Position numbers and translations under genes: made by a program. Positions 598 to 10,120 of a DNA stretch of 20,008 nucleotides are shown here, one piece after another; position 1 is the first letter of the stretch, and each line of letters begins with the position of its first letter. The notes beneath the pieces are model-generated. The model was not told the DNA's origin. It searched no databases and saw only the letters and a list, made by a program, of their open reading frames with translations. Source of the stretch: a virus; the IMG/VR virus record IMGVR_UViG_3300030693_000034, positions 1 to 20,008 of that record; one strand, written 5' to 3'.

Positions 598-2892
598 TTA
601 CGAGGTTGCGGTAGCCGTGTTCGCCGTGGCCGCGAACTGCGACGGCGTCGGCTGCGTGCTCTGAACGGTTACGGTGACATTGCCGCCGCCCTGGAATTTC
701 ACCACGAAGTATCGGATGACGTTCAGGTAGCGAACCTGCCAATAGAGGAACAGGTAACCGAGAGCCTGCAGGCTCGGCGGGTTGTTATTGAGATCGCACT
801 GGACCACCCACGGCTTGTCGATGATGCCTTGGCCGTTGATGCCGATACCAACCTGCGAAGATGCAAGCTGTGCCGACAGCCCGTCGAACAGGGACTTGGC
901 ATTGGAGCGAGTCTGATCGTTCGGCTGGATCGACTGCAACTGACCGACGAATGACCCTGCCGCCTTCGACTGAGAAGTACGGATCAGGAAGTTCGTCATG
1001 CGGGTGTACTCGATACCGTTCGCCGCGGTGTTCGAGCTGGCGTTGCGGCCGGTAGCGAACGAGTAGTAATAGCCACCGGGTGAAGAGTTCGGCGACAGGA
1101 TCGTATCGATGCCGCCTGTGTTGATCAGAGACAGCTCAGTGTCGCTGTAAGTCTGACCAAGCGTCGCACGCTGCGTCGAGGAGATGCCCTGCAGCGGCTT
1201 GTTCAGCGGGGACTCCTGCGGGGACAGATTACCGATGATCCCGAGACCAATGGCCGAGGAATTGATCAGTCGCGTCTGACCGTTGTAGCTGTCGTACCAC
1301 GACGGATAGTCGCCGAGGATGAACCAGAACCACGGGCTGTCGACGCCGGCATTGATGCGGGTATTGAGACAGTTCTGGATCGTGTCACCTGACGGCGAAG
1401 CGAACACCGGAAGCATCGTCTCGCTCAAGCCGAAGGATACGATCGCCGCATAGTCCGCGATGGTCGAGAGATCGCAGAGAGTGAAGCCGTCGCAGTTCGA
1501 ATTGCGGAGAGCATACATGCCCTTGCGAGGCACGATGTCCTGACCCATCAAGGTGGCATCGGTGACGCCGGCAGCGCCATCCGTACCTCCAGAGAGAACC
1601 AGCGGAGACGACAGCGTCGGGATTGCGACACCGGTTCCTACCGATGCGATCACATAGGCGGACGGACCGTGATACGGCGTGCCGTTGTTGATCGCGTTGG
1701 TCAGGTTGGTCCAGAAGGTGTTGCCAGTGCCGACGCCGCCCGTGAAGGCTGCACCGGAAATCACCAAGGTCGTCGATGACTTGGCGAGGGTCAGCGAGTT
1801 GCCGGCCGCGCCAACCACCTGGTTGATGTTGGCGGTCAACGTAACGATGCTTCCCTGCACCGACTGGTTGACCTTGATCAGGTTGGAGTCGGTCGAAGCC
1901 GACAAGAACGAGATCAGGTTAGCGATCGTGATTGCCTGGGTCGCACCGATCTGCACCTGATTGCCCGTCGGAGTCGCGGTCACGAAGGTGACGACGGTGC
2001 CGGCGATCGTCACGGTGTCGGAGTTCGCCGGGTTCCCGGTGAAGGAGACGGTGGCGGTCGCGGGAGTTGCGGCTGCAATGTTGTTGAACTGCTCCGGAAC
2101 CATGCCGGGGAATACGACGACAGCCATATAGGTGTTGGCCATCGTGCCGTTCTGGATCGAGAACTGGATCTTGTTGCCGAGGACGCCGCTGTACTTGCCA
2201 GAGATCGTCATACAAGCAGCGCCGCCAGCGGAGCCGCCGGTCAGCGTGGCGCCAGACAGCGTGATCGAGGTCGAAGACTTGGCGAGCGTCAGTGCGTTGC
2301 CGGCGGTGCCCGAGGTCACGGCCACCAGGTTCAGTACGAAGCCCTGCAGCGCGTAGGCGAACTTCACCAACTGGCTGTCGGCAGATGCCTGCAGCATCGT
2401 GATCAGGTTCTGAAGGGTCAAGGCAAGGTTGTTGCCGATGTTGACCTGGAGAGCCGACGCACCGGAAGCAACGAACGTGACAATGCTTCCGTTGATCGTC
2501 AGGGTGTCGTTGACGGATGGATTGGTCGTGAAGGCCGCAGAACCAACCGCGAAGGCAGCGCCGGACTGGATCTGCGAGAACGCAGCGGTATCCGTGCCGT
2601 CCGAGACGCGAACGCCCAGGAAGCCGATCGCCCCGCCGACCTGGCTGGCTGCCGACAAATAGGACGAGATGTCGTACGGACGGATGACGGGCGGCCCGAT
2701 GTTCAGCGCAGCATCCTGCGGCTTACTCATCGGGATCAGAGCATTCAGCGGGCCCCAGCTACCGACGCCGACCAGACCTTCGATATTCGTGGGCTGGCCG
2801 AGCAGCAACGGAGTCGGAAGTATAATGTCTCCGTAAACGCCGGGGACGGTTAGGGCCGCAAGATTTTGCTGGCCGTCGAGAAATACAGGCAT
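598..2892 (-). CDS. Contractile tail sheath protein with two inserted domains
   Basis: Tail sheath subunit, the outer sleeve that contracts to drive the tube through the host envelope. The N-terminus (VPGVYGDIILPT, then VGVGSWGPLN near residue 45) and the C-terminal region (WQVRYLNVIRYFVVKF near residue 725, followed by a Gly-rich strand) are typical of sheath proteins. At 764 aa it is much longer than the roughly 350-500 aa of common sheaths. The excess is largely two related domains of about 105 residues, at 118-221 and 281-386, each with an NDTLTI/SDTVTI strand, a helix such as LQNLITMLQAS, a GNALTLAKSST segment and a terminal TGG. The ATG at 2892 has GGAG six bases upstream. Terminator hairpins lie on both sides of the gene, which suggests separately controlled high expression. 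Confidence 0.88.
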   Translation of the reverse strand: MPVFLDGQQNLAALTVPGVYGDIILPTPLLLGQPTNIEGLVGVGSWGPLNALIPMSKPQDAALNIGPPVIRPYDISSYLSAASQVGGAIGFLGVRVSDGTDTAAFSQIQSGAAFAVGSAAFTTNPSVNDTLTINGSIVTFVASGASALQVNIGNNLALTLQNLITMLQASADSQLVKFAYALQGFVLNLVAVTSGTAGNALTLAKSSTSITLSGATLTGGSAGGAACMTISGKYSGVLGNKIQFSIQNGTMANTYMAVVVFPGMVPEQFNNIAAATPATATVSFTGNPANSDTVTIAGTVVTFVTATPTGNQVQIGATQAITIANLISFLSASTDSNLIKVNQSVQGSIVTLTANINQVVGAAGNSLTLAKSSTTLVISGAAFTGGVGTGNTFWTNLTNAINNGTPYHGPSAYVIASVGTGVAIPTLSSPLVLSGGTDGAAGVTDATLMGQDIVPRKGMYALRNSNCDGFTLCDLSTIADYAAIVSFGLSETMLPVFASPSGDTIQNCLNTRINAGVDSPWFWFILGDYPSWYDSYNGQTRLINSSAIGLGIIGNLSPQESPLNKPLQGISSTQRATLGQTYSDTELSLINTGGIDTILSPNSSPGGYYYSFATGRNASSNTAANGIEYTRMTNFLIRTSQSKAAGSFVGQLQSIQPNDQTRSNAKSLFDGLSAQLASSQVGIGINGQGIIDKPWVVQCDLNNNPPSLQALGYLFLYWQVRYLNVIRYFVVKFQGGGNVTVTVQSTQPTPSQFAATANTATATS
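1735..2052 (-). repeat. Sheath inserted domain, copy 2
   Basis: Encodes sheath residues 281-386, the second copy of the domain at 2230-2541. The two copies are separated by about 60 residues of probable core sheath sequence (ISGKYSGVLGNKIQFSI and following), so they occupy two separate insertion points or flank a core strand, rather than lying in direct tandem. Confidence 0.8.
2230..2541 (-). repeat. Sheath inserted domain, copy 1
   Basis: Encodes sheath residues 118-221. It shares with copy 2 the order FT.NP..(N/S)DT(L/V)TI.G..VTFV, a short helix with SADSQL, a GTAGNALTLAKSST segment and a final TGG. Similarity is also visible at DNA level around the ACTTGGCGAG stretch. A domain of this kind recurs in structural proteins of other phages, from memory; its role here is likely surface decoration of the sheath. 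Confidence 0.8.
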
Positions 2893-2904
2893 TTACGTCT
2901 CCAA

Positions 2905-2931
2905 TAAAAAAACCCGCCTCGAAGGGCGGGT
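2905..2931 (-). terminator. Intrinsic terminator just upstream of the sheath start
   Basis: The minus strand has ACCCGCC and GGCGGGT pairing as a 7-bp stem around a 6-nt loop, followed by seven T residues. It lies after the 43-aa gene and only a few bases before the sheath Shine-Dalgarno, so read-through, antitermination or RNA processing must supply sheath mRNA unless a promoter overlaps it. Confidence 0.85.
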
Positions 2932-2959
2932 CTGGAAAGGGTTGATTAGTGGAACTGGA

Positions 2960-3091
2960 TTAGAAGGAGGTGATCCGAACGAAGTGATGCTCGCGATCGA
3001 GCAGAAGCGTCGCCACTTCAGCAGCGTCGGTGATCATCGTGCCCTTCTCGTACTTTCCGAAAGGATGAACGCAAATGAGGAAGTAGTTCAT
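2960..3091 (-). CDS. Small conserved-looking phage protein, 43 aa
   Basis: A short gene beginning MNYFLICVHPFGKYEKG and ending HHFVRITSF. It has the look of a small phage family with an aromatic N-terminal strand, a G-x-I/M-I-T-D turn and a closing helix plus His-rich strand, which I recall near neck and tail genes of other phages. Function is unknown. AAGG stands about 8 bases before the ATG; the gene starts 10 bases after the stop of the preceding gene and is followed by the terminator in front of the sheath. The compact fold could be a small tail-completion or structural accessory factor, which is inference from position only. Confidence 0.7.
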   Translation of the reverse strand: MNYFLICVHPFGKYEKGTMITDAAEVATLLLDREHHFVRITSF

Positions 3092-3101
3092 GTGATGTGC
3101 C

Positions 3102-3980
3102 TTATGTTAAAGCTGTGGCTATCGCGCTGCCGATGCCCTGCGCGGTGATTGGGTTATTAACGGTCGTGATGACGGCGCCGGGGAATGTTTCGACGGTGGC
3201 ATATTCGACCATGTAGATCAGGTCGCGCCGGTAGACAGTCGCAGACGATTGGTCATCAGAAATGTTGGTGCGGCTGTAGATAACGAGAGCCTGAGATCCA
3301 TCAGGCATCGTGACTTTGTTACTGTTCTTGATGGCGACATCGATCGCCTTTGATAGAGTCGAGCGCACCGCTTGCGTTGGCGCCCATACACTCACCATCA
3401 CGGGATGACGTTGGCGATGAGTCACTTTGCCAAGAACGCCGTATCCGCCTTGGCGCACGATGAATGCGTGCGTGGTTGGAATGGTGATGGTGTTAGAAGT
3501 TGAAGATGCACTCGGATAGTTTGCTTGCGCTGCGCTGGCGAGAGTCGCCAAGATTGCTGCGGTGCTCGCTCCATTAGCCGAATAGGCGAATTGATCATCA
3601 CAGACCAACGTCAGGTATTCTTGCGCGTTAGGCTGTCCAGTTACGGTAAGAGTGTTGCCGTTGGTGGATAGACTCATTCCGTAGTTCACCGGAGTGACCA
3701 CGTATGTCTCGTCGAGGATTTGGTAGACGGCGATGCCAGTGCCCATCATTGGGAAGATGGACACGTTGGCTACGGGACCGCCTGGACGAGTGCCCGGAAG
3801 ACCAGTTGACAAGGACAACATCTTCCCGGCGAGATCGAGATCGAGCTGCGCCGCGTCAGGCCATCCTTCGTAGATCCTGCAGTCCATAGCCGCGACGGAT
3901 GGAACAGATATCCCATCTGGATAGACTGCGGCAGTTGCCGTGGCTTGGAGATACGCAGTGACGTCCGAAATGTCCGCCAC
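3102..3980 (-). CDS. Neck/tail-completion protein, possibly tail terminator
   Basis: A 292-aa structural-looking protein between the head-closure-like gene and the sheath, the position where contractile phages encode the tail terminator or completion protein. The N-terminus (MADISDVTAYLQATATAAVYPDG) resembles terminator-type proteins that open with a helix. A central segment (NTLTVTGQPNAQEYLTLVCDDQ, then residues around 135-165 ending NTITIPTT) looks like an inserted beta domain. The C-terminal third (HRQRHPVMVSVWAP, AIDVAIKNSNKVTMPDGSQA, DLIYMVEYATVETFPGAVIT) has alternating strands and one helix as in the terminator fold. The gene starts one base after the previous stop. I recognise no precise family, and tail terminator is an inference from order. 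Confidence 0.6.
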   Translation of the reverse strand: MADISDVTAYLQATATAAVYPDGISVPSVAAMDCRIYEGWPDAAQLDLDLAGKMLSLSTGLPGTRPGGPVANVSIFPMMGTGIAVYQILDETYVVTPVNYGMSLSTNGNTLTVTGQPNAQEYLTLVCDDQFAYSANGASTAAILATLASAAQANYPSASSTSNTITIPTTHAFIVRQGGYGVLGKVTHRQRHPVMVSVWAPTQAVRSTLSKAIDVAIKNSNKVTMPDGSQALVIYSRTNISDDQSSATVYRRDLIYMVEYATVETFPGAVITTVNNPITAQGIGSAIATALT

Positions 3981-3981
3981 G

Positions 3982-4371
3982 TTATGCCTCCAACCGGATG
4001 CAGCTCAGCTTGTAGCCGGCCATGCTCCAATAGTTTTGCCCGACCTCATATCGATATCCCTCTTCATCCAAGATGATGTCTCGATCCTTGATCGAGTATT
4101 GTGCGATCTCGGTAGGAGGAATGAAGATGTACCAGGTCGGCGCGTAGAAGACGTCGGAAGGAAGGGCTTTGCCTTTCTTACGTCCGGTGTCGCCTGACTG
4201 AATTGACGCAGCGATCCCCGTGAATAGGACTATTTCGCCCTGGGCATCGCTGGGGTTGGTTGATTGCTCTGCACCGGAATATCCGAGACCACCGATAGCA
4301 GTGTCTGCAGGTCCGGCCACTGATCTGAAACGGTGAACCTCCACCGTCCGAGGATAAAGAAGGTTCACCAT
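3982..4371 (-). CDS. Head closure-like neck protein
   Basis: A 129-aa protein starting MVNLLYPRTVEVHRF. A longer in-frame opening to 4593 exists, but the ATG at 4371 overlaps the stop codon of the preceding gene as TAATG, and the upstream part is a shadow of that gene, so I take 4371. The C-terminal half (YIFIPPTEIAQYSIKDRDII, DEEGYRYEVGQNYWSMAGYK, ending IRLEA) has the pattern of head-closure or stopper proteins of siphoviruses and myoviruses, which are small barrels ending in an EGxRYEV-type hairpin. Such proteins seal the filled head and join it to the tail. The family is not certain. Confidence 0.6.
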   Translation of the reverse strand: MVNLLYPRTVEVHRFRSVAGPADTAIGGLGYSGAEQSTNPSDAQGEIVLFTGIAASIQSGDTGRKKGKALPSDVFYAPTWYIFIPPTEIAQYSIKDRDIILDEEGYRYEVGQNYWSMAGYKLSCIRLEA

Positions 4372-4649
4372 TACTTGGCCTGCAGAAGGATCTGCACGCT
4401 TTCGATCATGGTGTCGCCGGCCGCCGTGGTGATCTCGTTGGAAAGCGTATAGACCTGACCAAGAAGTCCGGCGGTTAGCCATACCTTGGTGATAGACGCG
4501 ATGAACGAGTTGGAAACGATGGACAGATTTGAGCCGGTTGGGATGGTCCAAGCGGATGACACGATGGTGTCGCCAGCGAGACGCGCGGTCCAATCGAGAT
4601 CATAGTCCAGCGTCTCCGCCGGATCTTTAGGCGGCCACAGCAACGACAT
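4371..4649 (-). CDS. Phage fibre-tail adaptor-like protein (Gp77-like)
   Basis: A 92-aa Ig-like small protein: LLWPPKDPAETLDYDLDW, then LAGDTIVSSAWTIPTG, a W-containing strand (ITKVWLTAGLLGQVYTL) and a final strand ending in IESVQILL. This order (KDP-x-E-x-LDY-x-xDW, SS-x-W-x-xP, G-x-x-Y-x-L) is one I recognise from a widespread phage family annotated as fibre-tail adaptor (Gp77). These proteins are thought to bridge virion fibres and the tail or neck. The gene overlaps the next start by TAATG and lies 8 bases after the repetitive 396-aa gene, consistent with a fibre-attachment role for the block upstream. Confidence 0.7.
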   Translation of the reverse strand: MSLLWPPKDPAETLDYDLDWTARLAGDTIVSSAWTIPTGSNLSIVSNSFIASITKVWLTAGLLGQVYTLSNEITTAAGDTMIESVQILLQAK

Positions 4650-4657
4650 AGATCATC

Positions 4658-5848
4658 CTAATTGTTTGGGGGAGCTACTGCAGTCCTGTTCTCTGCCGCG
4701 ACTGATGCGCTCCTGAAATCGAGGAGAGCTGCGGCGATACGGGACGATCGTGCGAACACCTGGAGGGCTGCGCTCGACATGAACCCGAAGCTCGTCGACC
4801 CCGTCAGTGCGACGACGAAGACGACTCTGCCGATCAGTCCCTGCCCCGACGTGACGACTCGAGACACGCCGCTGAGCGCGACGTTGGCTGTTACCGAAGA
4901 GACAGATCGAACTGCGATCGTGGAGGATCCGAACAGACCAGCTATCCGAGACATGCTCGAAGAGCTTATGGTTCTGATCTTCGTTGCACCTGATAGGTGT
5001 ACCGAAGAAATAATACCGGCGCCCGAGGCCAGGGCCACCTTCATGGCTCCGGAGAGCTTCTGAGTGAAGGATGGATTGGATTTGGCCTGCACTGACAACG
5101 TCAGCGTCCCCTGGAGCGGAACGGTAGCCTTGGGTAATGCTCGAGCCATAACCGCAACGAATGCGCGACCGATTAGCGCAACAGCACCTGGTGGAACGAT
5201 CCGAGCCATGATGGCTGCCCGGCTCGCGCCAGATAGTCCGACGTGAGCAGACATAGCCGACAGCGTCTTGATGACCGAGGTCGTAGACCCGCTGAGACCA
5301 GTCTTGAGCGACGCGGATGATTTTCCTGTGCTGGCAACCTTTGAGTATCCAGCGAGAGAAGTTTTTGATACAGGCGAAGCGGATGCACGAATCTTGATGC
5401 CCATCGCGCCGAGAAGGGCAATGACAGACGGTCCGCCATAGTTTGCGGTAGAATGTATCGCAGAAGAGATGCGACCAGCCAGCGACACGACACCATGAGA
5501 TAGGGCTATGCCCTTGACCGCTACAGCCGTGCGCGCCGCCATCAACACCTTAGCGGTTAGGACGGCACTGCCTTTGACTTTCGCCTTGGTAGCACCGGAC
5601 AGGCTGGTCAGTCCCGCGATCTGCGCTTTGCCGATCAGCATCAGTAAGGATCGGCCGGCGAGCGCTACCGTTCCACCACTGACGACCGTCTCTGTCTCAG
5701 TAAGAACTGACCATCCGGAGGCATAGGTGCGCGAGCCTGTCTCCGTCACGATCCGCGGCGTCGCGCCGCGAATGACGTAGCTGCGCGTGGTCGCCGACGC
5801 TACAGTGGCGGCGGGGAGTTCTGCGGGTAAACCATAATACTGATGCAC
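4658..5848 (-). CDS. 20-residue repeat structural protein without acidic residues, unknown
   Basis: A 396-aa protein of unknown function. Residues about 61-350 consist of around fifteen repeats with a 20-residue period and consensus V-x-L-S/A-G followed by a strand such as ATKAKV. The small conserved Gly sits at residues 65, 85, 125, 147, 167, 187, 207, 227, 247, 267, 287, 307 and 327. From residue 54 to 376 there is not one Asp or Glu, while Lys and Arg are frequent, so the body should be strongly basic. Cys and Trp are also absent there. The head (residues 1-53) and tail (377-396) carry the only acids. I see no signal peptide. Placed among fibre-like genes and next to the Gp77-like gene, it may form a beta-solenoid fibre or a surface-binding shaft; that is inference. 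Confidence 0.75.
   Translation of the reverse strand: MHQYYGLPAELPAATVASATTRSYVIRGATPRIVTETGSRTYASGWSVLTETETVVSGGTVALAGRSLLMLIGKAQIAGLTSLSGATKAKVKGSAVLTAKVLMAARTAVAVKGIALSHGVVSLAGRISSAIHSTANYGGPSVIALLGAMGIKIRASASPVSKTSLAGYSKVASTGKSSASLKTGLSGSTTSVIKTLSAMSAHVGLSGASRAAIMARIVPPGAVALIGRAFVAVMARALPKATVPLQGTLTLSVQAKSNPSFTQKLSGAMKVALASGAGIISSVHLSGATKIRTISSSSMSRIAGLFGSSTIAVRSVSSVTANVALSGVSRVVTSGQGLIGRVVFVVALTGSTSFGFMSSAALQVFARSSRIAAALLDFRSASVAAENRTAVAPPNN
4799..5668 (-). repeat. About fifteen degenerate 60-bp coding repeats
   Basis: The DNA under residues 61-350 of the 396-aa protein repeats with a 60-bp period at protein level, marked by V-x-L-x-G every 20 residues. A single 22-residue step falls near residue 147. 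Nucleotide copies have diverged strongly, so this is an old repeat kept by selection on the protein. Confidence 0.75.
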
Positions 5849-6179: not shown

Positions 6180-7009
6180 AGGTAGACTCCATACAGTGTC
6201 AGATCGATTGGTCGCTGGTTGCCCGATCCGCTAGTTGCGTTTGTCTGGCAGCGCGCCGCGATGCGCGTTCCGGCAGGGATCTGGATGGGATGAAACGGAA
6301 ACTGGAACATCCAGTTGTTGCTATCGCTGTTATAGTTGAACAATTTAGGGATAATGATTTGCTCGCTGCCGGACGCACCGATGGCCACATCGACCAAGTA
6401 GGACTGAACCTTGCTGTTGCCCTGCTGGGAATCAAAAGCCCCGAAGATACCAACGTAATCCCGCGTGGTGGCAGCGATCAGTTGCGAGTATGCGCCCATC
6501 GTGTCGACGGTCGTGCTCGGGGTGAGTGAAGTTCCTTCAGTGCTGGTAGCAGTGAAGCCGATTGCATCGACGCCAGAATATCCGTCTGGCATGGTGAACC
6601 CAGCATCGAACAGGTTAAGGGAGACAGTGGCGGTCTGTGAACCGCTGCTGTCCTGCATGCGAGCGGCGATGCGCGTGCCTGCCGGAATTGAAATTGGAAA
6701 CGCCCAGACTACCAAGTTGTAACCAGCAAAGATCGTTTGCGTTACAAGATTGGGAACTAAAACTACTTCCGACCCCGACGCACCGACGGCGATGTCGATC
6801 GCAAAGTTTGGGCTGTTAGAGTTCTGGACGTAAATCCTGACCTCCATGAAAGCGGCGTCAGATGCTGTCGCCGCAATCAATTGCGTGTAGGCGCCCTTGG
6901 TGTTGGCGGTGGCGCTGGAGGTAACCACGGTACCGAACGACGTGGTCAGAACAGAGCCGACGTTCTGGCCGTTGCAAATGTCGTTATGGAGAGAAAAACC
7001 GCCCGGCAT
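6176..7009 (-). CDS. Duplicated-domain fibre-like protein
   Basis: A 277-aa protein made of two copies of a domain of about 120-130 residues. Shared landmarks are GAYTQLIAAT at 39-48 and GAYSQLIAAT at 172-181, DIAVGASGSE at 72-81 and DVAIGASGSE at 207-216, and PISIPAGTRIAAR at 105-117 and PIQIPAGTRIAAR at 241-253. The pattern suggests two beta-sandwich (jelly-roll-like) domains. I chose ATG 7009 (MPGGFSLHND), two bases after the preceding stop; the frame is open upstream to 7303 but that part is a shadow of the 145-aa gene. Probable virion surface or fibre component, by composition and position; no family recognised. Confidence 0.75.
   Translation of the reverse strand: MPGGFSLHNDICNGQNVGSVLTTSFGTVVTSSATANTKGAYTQLIAATASDAAFMEVRIYVQNSNSPNFAIDIAVGASGSEVVLVPNLVTQTIFAGYNLVVWAFPISIPAGTRIAARMQDSSGSQTATVSLNLFDAGFTMPDGYSGVDAIGFTATSTEGTSLTPSTTVDTMGAYSQLIAATTRDYVGIFGAFDSQQGNSKVQSYLVDVAIGASGSEQIIIPKLFNYNSDSNNWMFQFPFHPIQIPAGTRIAARCQTNATSGSGNQRPIDLTLYGVYL
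6179..6562 (-). repeat. Duplicated domain, copy 2
   Basis: Encodes residues about 150-277 of the 277-aa protein. The linker between copies carries MPDGYSG, echoing MPGGFS at the start of copy 1, so the duplication unit probably began at the very N-terminus. Confidence 0.75.
6605..6961 (-). repeat. Duplicated domain, copy 1
   Basis: Encodes residues about 17-135 of the 277-aa protein; aligned with copy 2 by the GAYTQLIAAT, IAVGASGSE and IPAGTRIAAR landmarks. Confidence 0.75.
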
Positions 7010-7456: not shown

Positions 7457-9226
7457 CTAACTTAGTGTGGGTGAAGGATCAAAGAGCGTCGTCACGGAGG
7501 TTGACCCGGTCTGCACGAAGGGTTGCACTTCGACTGGACCGGCAAGCGCCTGTTGCGGCGATGTCAGTGACGCCGTAATCTTGAAGCGCCACATCGCCTG
7601 GAATACTGCCGTTCCATCCGTTACCGAGCCGCCGTCGACGGCACTGGCATAACCACCAGGAACCGAAGATGCAGTGGTGCCGGCAGTCGTACAGATGAAA
7701 AGTCGGCCGGAGTTGGTCGACACTGCCATGACCTGGCCGAGGGTGACGGCCGTCGAGTTGGCGCGCTGCGGCGCTTTGCTATCCCATGCGCTGGTGTCGG
7801 CCGTGAGCGCCGTACCCGTCGTCGCGGAGATCGCAGTGCGCGTGGACATGACACTGCCAAGGGGTGCCGCAGACGATCCTGGATAGGTGACGTTCATCCA
7901 CACGGAAGCGTTCGTCGGCATCGCCGAGGCGCCAGAGACGCCATACAACGTCACGTTCAGCGCCGAGGTGGTCTTGTTGTTCCACGACGCAAGAGGAAAG
8001 CACTCGAACGGAAAATAGAATGACGTGACCTGGCTGTTGTTCGGGTTGGCGAACGTATTGACGGTGTGTCCAAAGGCACCAGTGTCATCAGCGGCACCGC
8101 CGGTGCGAACTAGTGTGCGGGAGGACAGCAGGTTGCCCGCGGCGCGGGTGACGCCGTGCACGTTGTCATCGTTGGCCGACGAGCACCGAATGAGATAGGA
8201 CGAGACCAGCGGGCCCTGCTTGCCGTCATCACCCGCCACACTGAAGGGAATGGCGTTCGAGGCCAGCTTGCAATTCTCTAGGTACTGCGATCCGGCTCCG
8301 CCCGACTGGTTGATGATGTAGTTCGAGCCCCAGCCCGAGAGGTCCGAGTCGATCAGGTGAAACTCACCCGCTGCCGGGTTGTTCCAGAACCGGCTCGGGA
8401 ACGACGTGCCCGACGCCATCTGCGCATTGATGACTCTGCCGATGCCTCCGCCAAAGCTGTTGTGGCAGGTGGTGTCGCCGAAGCTGAACGTGCAGTTATT
8501 CCAGGTGTGGGAATACGAGAATGGACCGCCCATCTTGTTGGCATCGGAACCGGCCAGCATCCCGAAATAACAGTTGTCGTACAGCTCCATGCCGTTGGAG
8601 CTGGACTGCATCTGGTGGGCCGAGATGAACGAGATCCCCCACCAGTACATCTGGACGTTGTTGCTGGGGTCGTTGAACGCGATGGCATTGTTGCCGGACG
8701 CAGTCATTGTGACCGAGGCGCCGAGGTTGGTGTTCTGCGTGCCCGGCTGGGGAAACCAGTCTTTCGCGAGCGGCGGCACATCGCCAGTGCCTGTGTTGTC
8801 GACGCAGATGACCTGGTTCAGCAACCAATTGCTGCCGGACATCTGGAACTTGATCTGGTTGGCTGACGACTCCGCGTGGTTCTTGGCGACGTAAATCGTG
8901 TCGCCCTCGGCAGCCCATCCGGACTGCATCGCGTTGTTGATCAGCTTGTGAGGAGCTGCCCACGCGCCGGGGGACTGAAAGGTCTGTTGACCGGTCACCT
9001 CGGTGAAAGTGGCGCCGCCAGACGTGGTCGTGCTGCCCGCGGTTAGATTCCACGTCGGTTCAGTACCTGCAGACGTACCCGCCGTCGTGCAACGAAAGAC
9101 TCGCTCGTTGCCGACAGTGGGGGTGGCCAACTGGCGAATAAGATTGCCGACCGTGTAGGCGTGCGAAACTGTGAACGCCGCAACGTTGCCGTAGTCGACG
9201 GACCCTACGTACCAGTTGTTGGCCAT
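7457..9226 (-). CDS. Large beta-helix-like tail fibre/tailspike-type protein
   Basis: A 589-aa protein rich in Gly, Ser, Thr and Asn, with a long central region (about 90-420) of short strands and Asn ladders (SWNNCTFSFGD-type turns, ENCKLASN, LIDSDLSGWGSN) suggesting a right-handed parallel beta-helix, as in tailspikes and pectate-lyase-like phage proteins. Near each end is the same small module: RVFRCTTAGTSAGTEPTW at residues 42-59 and RLFICTTAGTTASSVP at 508-523, the second followed by DGTAVFQAMW. Such CTTAG modules occur in many phage fibres and may bind glycans. Residues 92-115 hold EGDTIYVAKNHAE, a typical beta-helix entry motif. Probably adhesin or polysaccharide-binding fibre; no catalytic residues can be named, so a depolymerase role is unproven. 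Confidence 0.75.
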   Translation of the reverse strand: MANNWYVGSVDYGNVAAFTVSHAYTVGNLIRQLATPTVGNERVFRCTTAGTSAGTEPTWNLTAGSTTTSGGATFTEVTGQQTFQSPGAWAAPHKLINNAMQSGWAAEGDTIYVAKNHAESSANQIKFQMSGSNWLLNQVICVDNTGTGDVPPLAKDWFPQPGTQNTNLGASVTMTASGNNAIAFNDPSNNVQMYWWGISFISAHQMQSSSNGMELYDNCYFGMLAGSDANKMGGPFSYSHTWNNCTFSFGDTTCHNSFGGGIGRVINAQMASGTSFPSRFWNNPAAGEFHLIDSDLSGWGSNYIINQSGGAGSQYLENCKLASNAIPFSVAGDDGKQGPLVSSYLIRCSSANDDNVHGVTRAAGNLLSSRTLVRTGGAADDTGAFGHTVNTFANPNNSQVTSFYFPFECFPLASWNNKTTSALNVTLYGVSGASAMPTNASVWMNVTYPGSSAAPLGSVMSTRTAISATTGTALTADTSAWDSKAPQRANSTAVTLGQVMAVSTNSGRLFICTTAGTTASSVPGGYASAVDGGSVTDGTAVFQAMWRFKITASLTSPQQALAGPVEVQPFVQTGSTSVTTLFDPSPTLS

Positions 9227-9232
9227 CCGCTA

Positions 9233-10120
9233 TTACGCTGCGCTGATGACGATAGTGCCGGACGCGAACGACGGCGTTACGCCAGCCGGGATCGACTGCT
9301 GCACGATCTTTCGCAGCATGCCAGAGCCGGAGCTGGTTGTGACGCAAGCGGTCGCCGGGCCCGTAGTGGTGTCGACGTTGATGGCGTCGGTCGCGGGCGT
9401 GGCAACGAAGTTCACGGTGTAGCCCGTCCAGGTGCCCGTGGAGAGCGTCGGAAGAGTCCCGCCGTACTCCGCTGTGAACACGATCGGATCGTTGCTGGCA
9501 AACCCGTTGGCCTTGACGGACACTAGGTTGCTCGCGGTCGGAACCTCGAACGGCAACCAGGGGAAGTTGCCCAGGAAATCCCAAGCCAGAAGATCGCCCG
9601 CGGTCAGAGCGTCGTAGAGACCCCAAGCGATGACCGTACCGAAGCCGGCGCCCGTGGCAGCCGCGTACGCTACAGCAGCGCCATTGGTCGTGGACGACGG
9701 TGCAGTGCCGCTGGCATTCGGGAACGCCGAGAACGTCAAGCTGTCGGTCGAGCCGGAAGACGCATGCAGAGCGTTGGCCGTGAGGACCAGCGCGGTTCCG
9801 ACGTACGTCGAGACAGTGCCGATCGCCTGCGAGTTGGTCGTATCGTAGACGGTCATGCCAGGCACAACCCAGCCAGGGTTGGTCGTCATGGTGACGTTCG
9901 CCGAGCCGGTCGTGAACGACGCAGTAGCCGCAACGGAGCCGGCAACCTGCGTACGAGCATACGCGGTACCGGACGTCGAGACTTCGGTGAAGCCGGTGCC
10001 GGCGTCAGTACCGACCGCCGTGAACAGCGCCATGAACACAGACGGCGTGACCGGCTGCGCAATCTGTCCCGTGATGTTGTTCAGCAGATTGTCTGCCGAA
10101 TAGTTCGTGAGGCCGGTCAT
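9233..10120 (-). CDS. Phage tail fibre protein, Gp80-like
   Basis: A 295-aa protein whose N-terminus (MTGLTNYSADNLLNNITG, then TPSVFMALFTAVGTDAGTG, FTEVSTSGTAYARTQV) matches a recurrent phage fibre family (Gp80-like) in which an ALFT strand and a GxAYARQ-type motif are diagnostic. Residues about 66-133 look like an insert: GSANVTMTTNPGWVVPGMTV, DTTNSQAIGTV and SSGSTDSLTFSAFP; a small domain of this type occurs in other phage structural proteins. The C-terminal part (IAWGLYDALTAGDLLAWDFL, then a beta domain) is also family-like. It follows the small 74-aa gene by 9 bases and precedes the beta-helix protein by 6, consistent with one fibre operon. Confidence 0.7.
   Translation of the reverse strand: MTGLTNYSADNLLNNITGQIAQPVTPSVFMALFTAVGTDAGTGFTEVSTSGTAYARTQVAGSVAATASFTTGSANVTMTTNPGWVVPGMTVYDTTNSQAIGTVSTYVGTALVLTANALHASSGSTDSLTFSAFPNASGTAPSSTTNGAAVAYAAATGAGFGTVIAWGLYDALTAGDLLAWDFLGNFPWLPFEVPTASNLVSVKANGFASNDPIVFTAEYGGTLPTLSTGTWTGYTVNFVATPATDAINVDTTTGPATACVTTSSGSGMLRKIVQQSIPAGVTPSFASGTIVISAA

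Follow-up and report, generated by a model that had tools for sequence, protein, structure and literature searches.

The window analysed here is a 20,008-base virus record (IMG/VR IMGVR_UViG_3300030693_000034, positions 1 to 20,008), near-unchanged copies of which occur in contigs of several other samples, the longest measuring 67,026 bases. Its minus strand carries, in order, terminase and portal genes, a head–tail adaptor-like gene (PHROG 442), a fibre block and tail genes (Table 1). Four genes separate the bead gene that opens the fibre block from the gene for a repeat protein, P0001, and judging from position alone they are probably other fibre components. The product of the next gene downstream of P0001 matches, in addition to its Pfam family, chain D of PDB 8jou (8jou_D, E = 4.5e−6). 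The first-pass annotation had placed P0001 in a fibre-like block beside a Gp77-like adaptor gene, and the two Pfam matches, PF23148 next door and PF23140 within the block, bear this out.

Table 1. Features of the window and of the corresponding region of phage GP4 (GP4 positions refer to its own genome).
Feature	Positions	Strand	Description
Repeat protein P0001	5848–4658	minus	396 aa, GTG start; soil-phage gene; proposed rope strand of beaded neck fibre
Acid-free stretch of P0001	4721–5689	minus	residues 54–376, without Asp or Glu
Fifteen repeat units of P0001	4748–5662	minus	residues 63–367; 20 residues each, one of 22, one of 23
C-terminal motif RSASVAAENR of P0001	4685–4714	minus	residues 379–388; fits R-x3-[VI]-x2-[ED]-x-R
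Gp77-type fibre–tail adaptor	4371–4649	minus	92 aa; next gene downstream of P0001; closes fibre block; Pfam PF23148, E = 7e−24
Gp80-type bead gene	9233–10120	minus	295 aa; opens fibre block; Pfam PF23140, E = 1.6e−11
Four genes between bead and P0001	5850–9226	minus	589, 145, 277 and 109 aa
589-aa fibre-block protein	7457–9226	minus	residues 31–75 match PHROG 20658 ('head decoration')
Sheath-like gene	598–2892	minus	PHROG match carries no function
GP4 gp80 (bead)	1777–2199		
GP4 gp79	2206–3183		number assigned by position in this analysis
GP4 gp78			between gp79 and gp77; number assigned by position in this analysis
GP4 gp77 (adaptor)	4886–5167		

Two other products of the window have features of their own. 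In the 589-aa protein of the fibre block, a stretch resembling the PHROG 20658 region also occurs near the C-terminal part. The product of 598–2892 reads, from its sequence, like a sheath protein, and contains a domain of about 100 residues in two copies (DTLTINGSIVTFV... and DTVTIAGTVVTFV...), which are two stretches of PHROG 28344.

The first-pass annotation gave no strand for P0001; its ORF is on the minus strand, and the plus strand at 4658–5848 contains many stops. Judged from codon usage, the P0001 frame is coding: log-odds per codon were +0.106 in this frame and below zero in the other five, and its synonymous codon choice fits the codon usage of the phage's other genes better than all of 500 random recodings (500/500). 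Both measures speak against the possibility, raised in the first-pass annotation, that the frame is not translated. The run without Asp or Glu spans exactly the residues described there, and Lys and Arg are indeed frequent in it (32 of 323 residues, 9.9%). No GAN codon was seen in this run, against 12.2 expected from the base frequencies of the first two codon positions (Poisson p = 5e−6); acids are thus missing beyond what base composition predicts, which counts against the composition being its by-product.

A mark of the form V-x-L-S/A-G had been described as recurring every 20 residues about fifteen times with one 22-residue step, and we find fifteen units, with a step of 23 as well as one of 22. 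The mark residue lies at positions 63, 83, 103, 123, 145, 165, 185, 205, 225, 245, 265, 285, 305, 325 and 348, and is Leu, or Met in one unit; the unit at 103 reads MAA in place of LxG. Column 1 is Leu and column 3 is Gly in 14 of the 15 units each, within the consensus L-[SA]-G-x3-h-x-h-x-[GS]-x-[AS]-x-h-x3-V-x. Across residues 55–376, identity at lag 20 was 0.225, a value matched at any lag by 0 of 20,000 shuffles.

Beyond identical contigs, no homologue of P0001 over its whole length was found. Pfam, PHROGs and NCBIfam gave no match above cut-off (no PHROG family at E ≤ 1), tblastn in phages gave none at E ≤ 1, and comparison with PDB by sequence gave no meaningful match. DUF1427 was rejected at 14.9 bits, its cut-off being 27.1. 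Among the listed loci related through the tail gene at 3102–3980 (L013–L019), no comparable repeat gene was present at the corresponding place.

Genes of the same period and position were nevertheless identified in other phages. The 8jou bead sequence matched the 61,129-base genome of phage GP4 at 100%, and GP4 gp79, like BcepIL02 gp56 among the Burkholderia relatives of GP4, lies between a bead and an adaptor gene. Both proteins have a best lag of 20, reached by 0 of 1000 shuffles each, so that the 20-residue period is kept in genes that occupy this place in other phages. PHROG 19041, whose label is 'virion structural protein', includes both, and existing annotation lists BcepIL02 gp56 and BcepMigl gp57 as virion-associated. 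P0001 gave no match to the PHROG 19041 profile and, having no PHROG match at E ≤ 1, is not counted within this sequence family. It nonetheless shares with GP4 gp79 and its Bcep22-like homologues a location with a Gp80 bead gene on one side and a Gp77 adaptor gene on the other, the 20-residue period and a C-terminal R-x3-V-x2-[ED]-x-R. It differs from them in having 15 repeats rather than about 11 (our own count for gp79), in an Asp+Glu content of 1.5% compared with 8.6% in GP4 gp79 and 10.5% in BcepIL02 gp56, and in showing no detectable whole-length sequence homology to gp79.

Fibre I of GP4 reportedly consists of five gp80 dimers on a 15-fold adaptor, with an elongated rope protein linking the dimers. 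The 10 gp80 bead chains and 3 gp77 adaptor chains of PDB 8jou fit this arrangement, and 10 bead chains beside about 11 gp79 repeats would suit a pairing of each bead subunit with one repeat. By sequence, GP4 gp79 and gp78 and BcepIL02 gp56 have no meaningful match in PDB. That gp79 is the GP4 rope is therefore our inference, and so are the docking of the motif on the adaptor and the pairing of one repeat with one bead subunit. The mass-spectrometry list of virion proteins of phage JC1 contains bead gp53 and adaptor gp55 and lacks the gp79 homologue gp54, encoded between them (PMC9144972); few gp54 copies per particle would explain the missing detection, which still counts against certainty.

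We then surveyed genes beside Gp77-type adaptors, using four adaptors as seeds, collecting related loci from viral contigs and bacterial genomes, and clustering the adaptors at 60% identity. Of 29 adaptor clusters, 18 had an ORF directly upstream of the adaptor that was periodic at 17–26 residues (p < 0.01), a count that takes in the window's own cluster and the two loci that prompted the idea, compared with 1 of 28 for the downstream ORF; the upstream gene failed the period test in the other 11. In 19 of 40 clusters an upstream ORF had the motif R-x3-[VI]-x2-[ED]-x-R within its C-terminal 110 residues, versus 28 of 1610 control ORFs, a contrast that is descriptive, since the motif was picked after some of these sequences had been viewed, and that somewhat favours the clusters through the use of the best member of each. 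In one locus (L045) the order differs, running rope, bead, adaptor, so that the three remain together there despite the rearrangement.

Two further genes are among the closest known counterparts of P0001. A prophage gene of Nocardioides marmoriginsengisoli (L129, 4094–5965) repeats the L-[AS]-G unit of P0001 at 20-residue intervals, lies directly upstream of a PF23148 adaptor and carries C-terminal copies reading RTYNVPAENR; it differs in containing acids, in a net charge near zero and in an extra, unrelated N-terminal region, and the match between the units is modest, being equalled by 3 of 1000 column permutations of the P0001 units. An ORF of Agrobacterium phage Atu_ph08 (L106, 6432–6986) lies between a Gp80 bead and a Gp77 adaptor, is basic and acid-poor and ends in RALVVAPELR, differing from P0001 in its length (184 aa) and in a periodicity that is not clear. 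This ORF is unannotated, and GenBank places a CDS on the opposite strand at 6455–6766.

Taken with its place in the bead/adaptor block, which would explain the gene, these likenesses make P0001 probably the rope-type strand in a beaded neck fibre resembling fibre I of GP4. By position, period and tail motif it most likely acts like GP4 gp79, from which it differs as a sequence family. The C-terminal tail (R-x3-V-x2-E-x-R) would dock near the Gp77-type adaptor ring at the head–tail junction, and the 20-residue repeats would extend along the fibre, each offering a site for one Gp80-type bead subunit, so that, as we propose, the number of repeats would set fibre length. Unlike the podophage setting of GP4, the putative rope would here sit in a phage with a tail-sheath-like gene. 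The gene order, the period, the C-terminal motif and the bead and adaptor homologues are observed; against the rope reading, the likeness to gp79 is limited to period, position and a 10-residue motif, four genes lie between bead and P0001 in the window, and many surveyed loci lack a nearby bead or, in the 11 clusters above, a periodic upstream gene. The earlier proposal of an elongated structural element of the fibre block that works with a Gp77-like adaptor is thereby supported, and such an element can be specified further as the rope in a neck fibre like fibre I of GP4.

A different architecture, which we think rather unlikely, is a self-standing fibre shaft on the adaptor, folded as a beta-solenoid in which each repeat makes one turn, possibly as a trimer, and not threaded through Gp80 beads. 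In its favour, the hydrophobic pattern of P0001 is regular at 20 residues, and many of the surveyed loci showed no bead gene inside roughly 5 kb. A distant relative with a 22-residue period, modelled with AlphaFold2 from 22 aligned sequences, showed regular short beta-strands at pLDDT 70–80 at best, with a low-confidence C-terminal tail; several beta-helical proteins were among the weak Foldseek matches of this model to PDB, none of them significant or with E below 0.2. P0001 itself, however, gave a mean pLDDT of 36 from its single sequence and no usable model, a bead homologue is present in its block, and in GP4 and related phages the bead and repeat genes are neighbours. The P0001 repeats may adopt either a coiled or an extended beta structure.

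The first-pass annotation had further suggested that P0001 binds a negatively charged surface such as LPS, capsule or nucleic acid. Among same-slot genes, net charge ranged from −91 (L024) to +44, and most relatives are net acidic (GP4 gp79, −7), so that the acid-free composition is not kept in relatives. Other long acid-free runs (458 residues in L025, 327 in L028, 311 in L026 and 247 in L032) contain only 1–3% Lys/Arg. L106 combines a basic with an acid-poor character (12.4% Lys/Arg in 97 residues), as do L136 and L140 more weakly, P0001 having the longest basic acid-free run in the surveyed set. The 32 Lys/Arg without a single acid in 323 residues, the shortage of GAN codons and the second basic, acid-poor gene in the same slot of Atu_ph08 would all suit binding of a polyanion (LPS, capsule or DNA) of host or virion, but the spread in charge and the acid-free runs of at least 240 residues that are scarcely basic make it improbable that this is the main function of P0001; since the composition is not conserved, surface binding is unsupported. 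The acid lack is extreme, yet it varies within a wider family most of which has no name, and repeat expansion from an acid-less unit is its simplest account. In a P0001 rope it would be a property of the protein's own repeat unit and not key to function.

That the frame is untranslated and its odd composition a by-product of base composition is barely credible: there is no clear Shine–Dalgarno sequence close to the GTG start and no divergent whole-length homologue was found, but codon usage and synonymous choice agree with the other phage genes, genes at the same position elsewhere show the period, and the acid shortage exceeds what base composition predicts.

Basic P0001 could possibly help to hold the acidic bead protein (net charge −9). 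Charge pairing between rope and bead was rejected as a general rule, because the beads found were all net negative but the ropes ranged from strongly negative to positive. We put forward, as a speculation that may well fail, that the genes just upstream of Gp77-type adaptors encode widespread, fast-changing strands of 20–24-residue repeats with a constant C-terminal docking motif, acting as a ruler for bead number, and that P0001 is a basic version holding acidic beads partly by charge.

If P0001 is indeed a rope strand, beaded neck fibres would gain a sequence handle for their strand, a component of the virion that homology searches do not easily reveal. Candidates could be picked by a neighbouring Gp77-type adaptor, a period of 20–24 residues and a C-terminal R-x3-V-x2-E-x-R tail; such candidates occur across several phyla of bacteria, in phages as well as prophages, and most are unannotated. 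Should each repeat hold a single bead subunit, the sequence could reveal how long the fibre is.

Beaded neck fibres are also known from Anabaena phage A-1(L), which has a contractile tail and carries five of them (gp82-gp81-gp80) on a 15-fold neck ring (PMC10966104). The reported A-1(L) model is a trimer chain without a rope protein, in which it differs from our proposal for P0001.

Some surveyed loci carry other kinds of protein beside the adaptor. In L026 (1–2772), the protein encoded upstream of a Gp77-type adaptor is 923 residues long and consists almost entirely of SPSLSPSVSPS-type repeats. The closest relatives of the window's own adaptor in bacterial genomes are mostly from Acidobacteria/Bryobacterales (41–48% identity), which is a weak hint at the host. 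In acidobacterial loci (L118–L123, L125 and L126), a Gp80-type gene lies upstream, and the gene just upstream of the adaptor has the same E-x-R tail and not 20-residue repeats; in L118 its product shows a weak lectin/LamG-like match.
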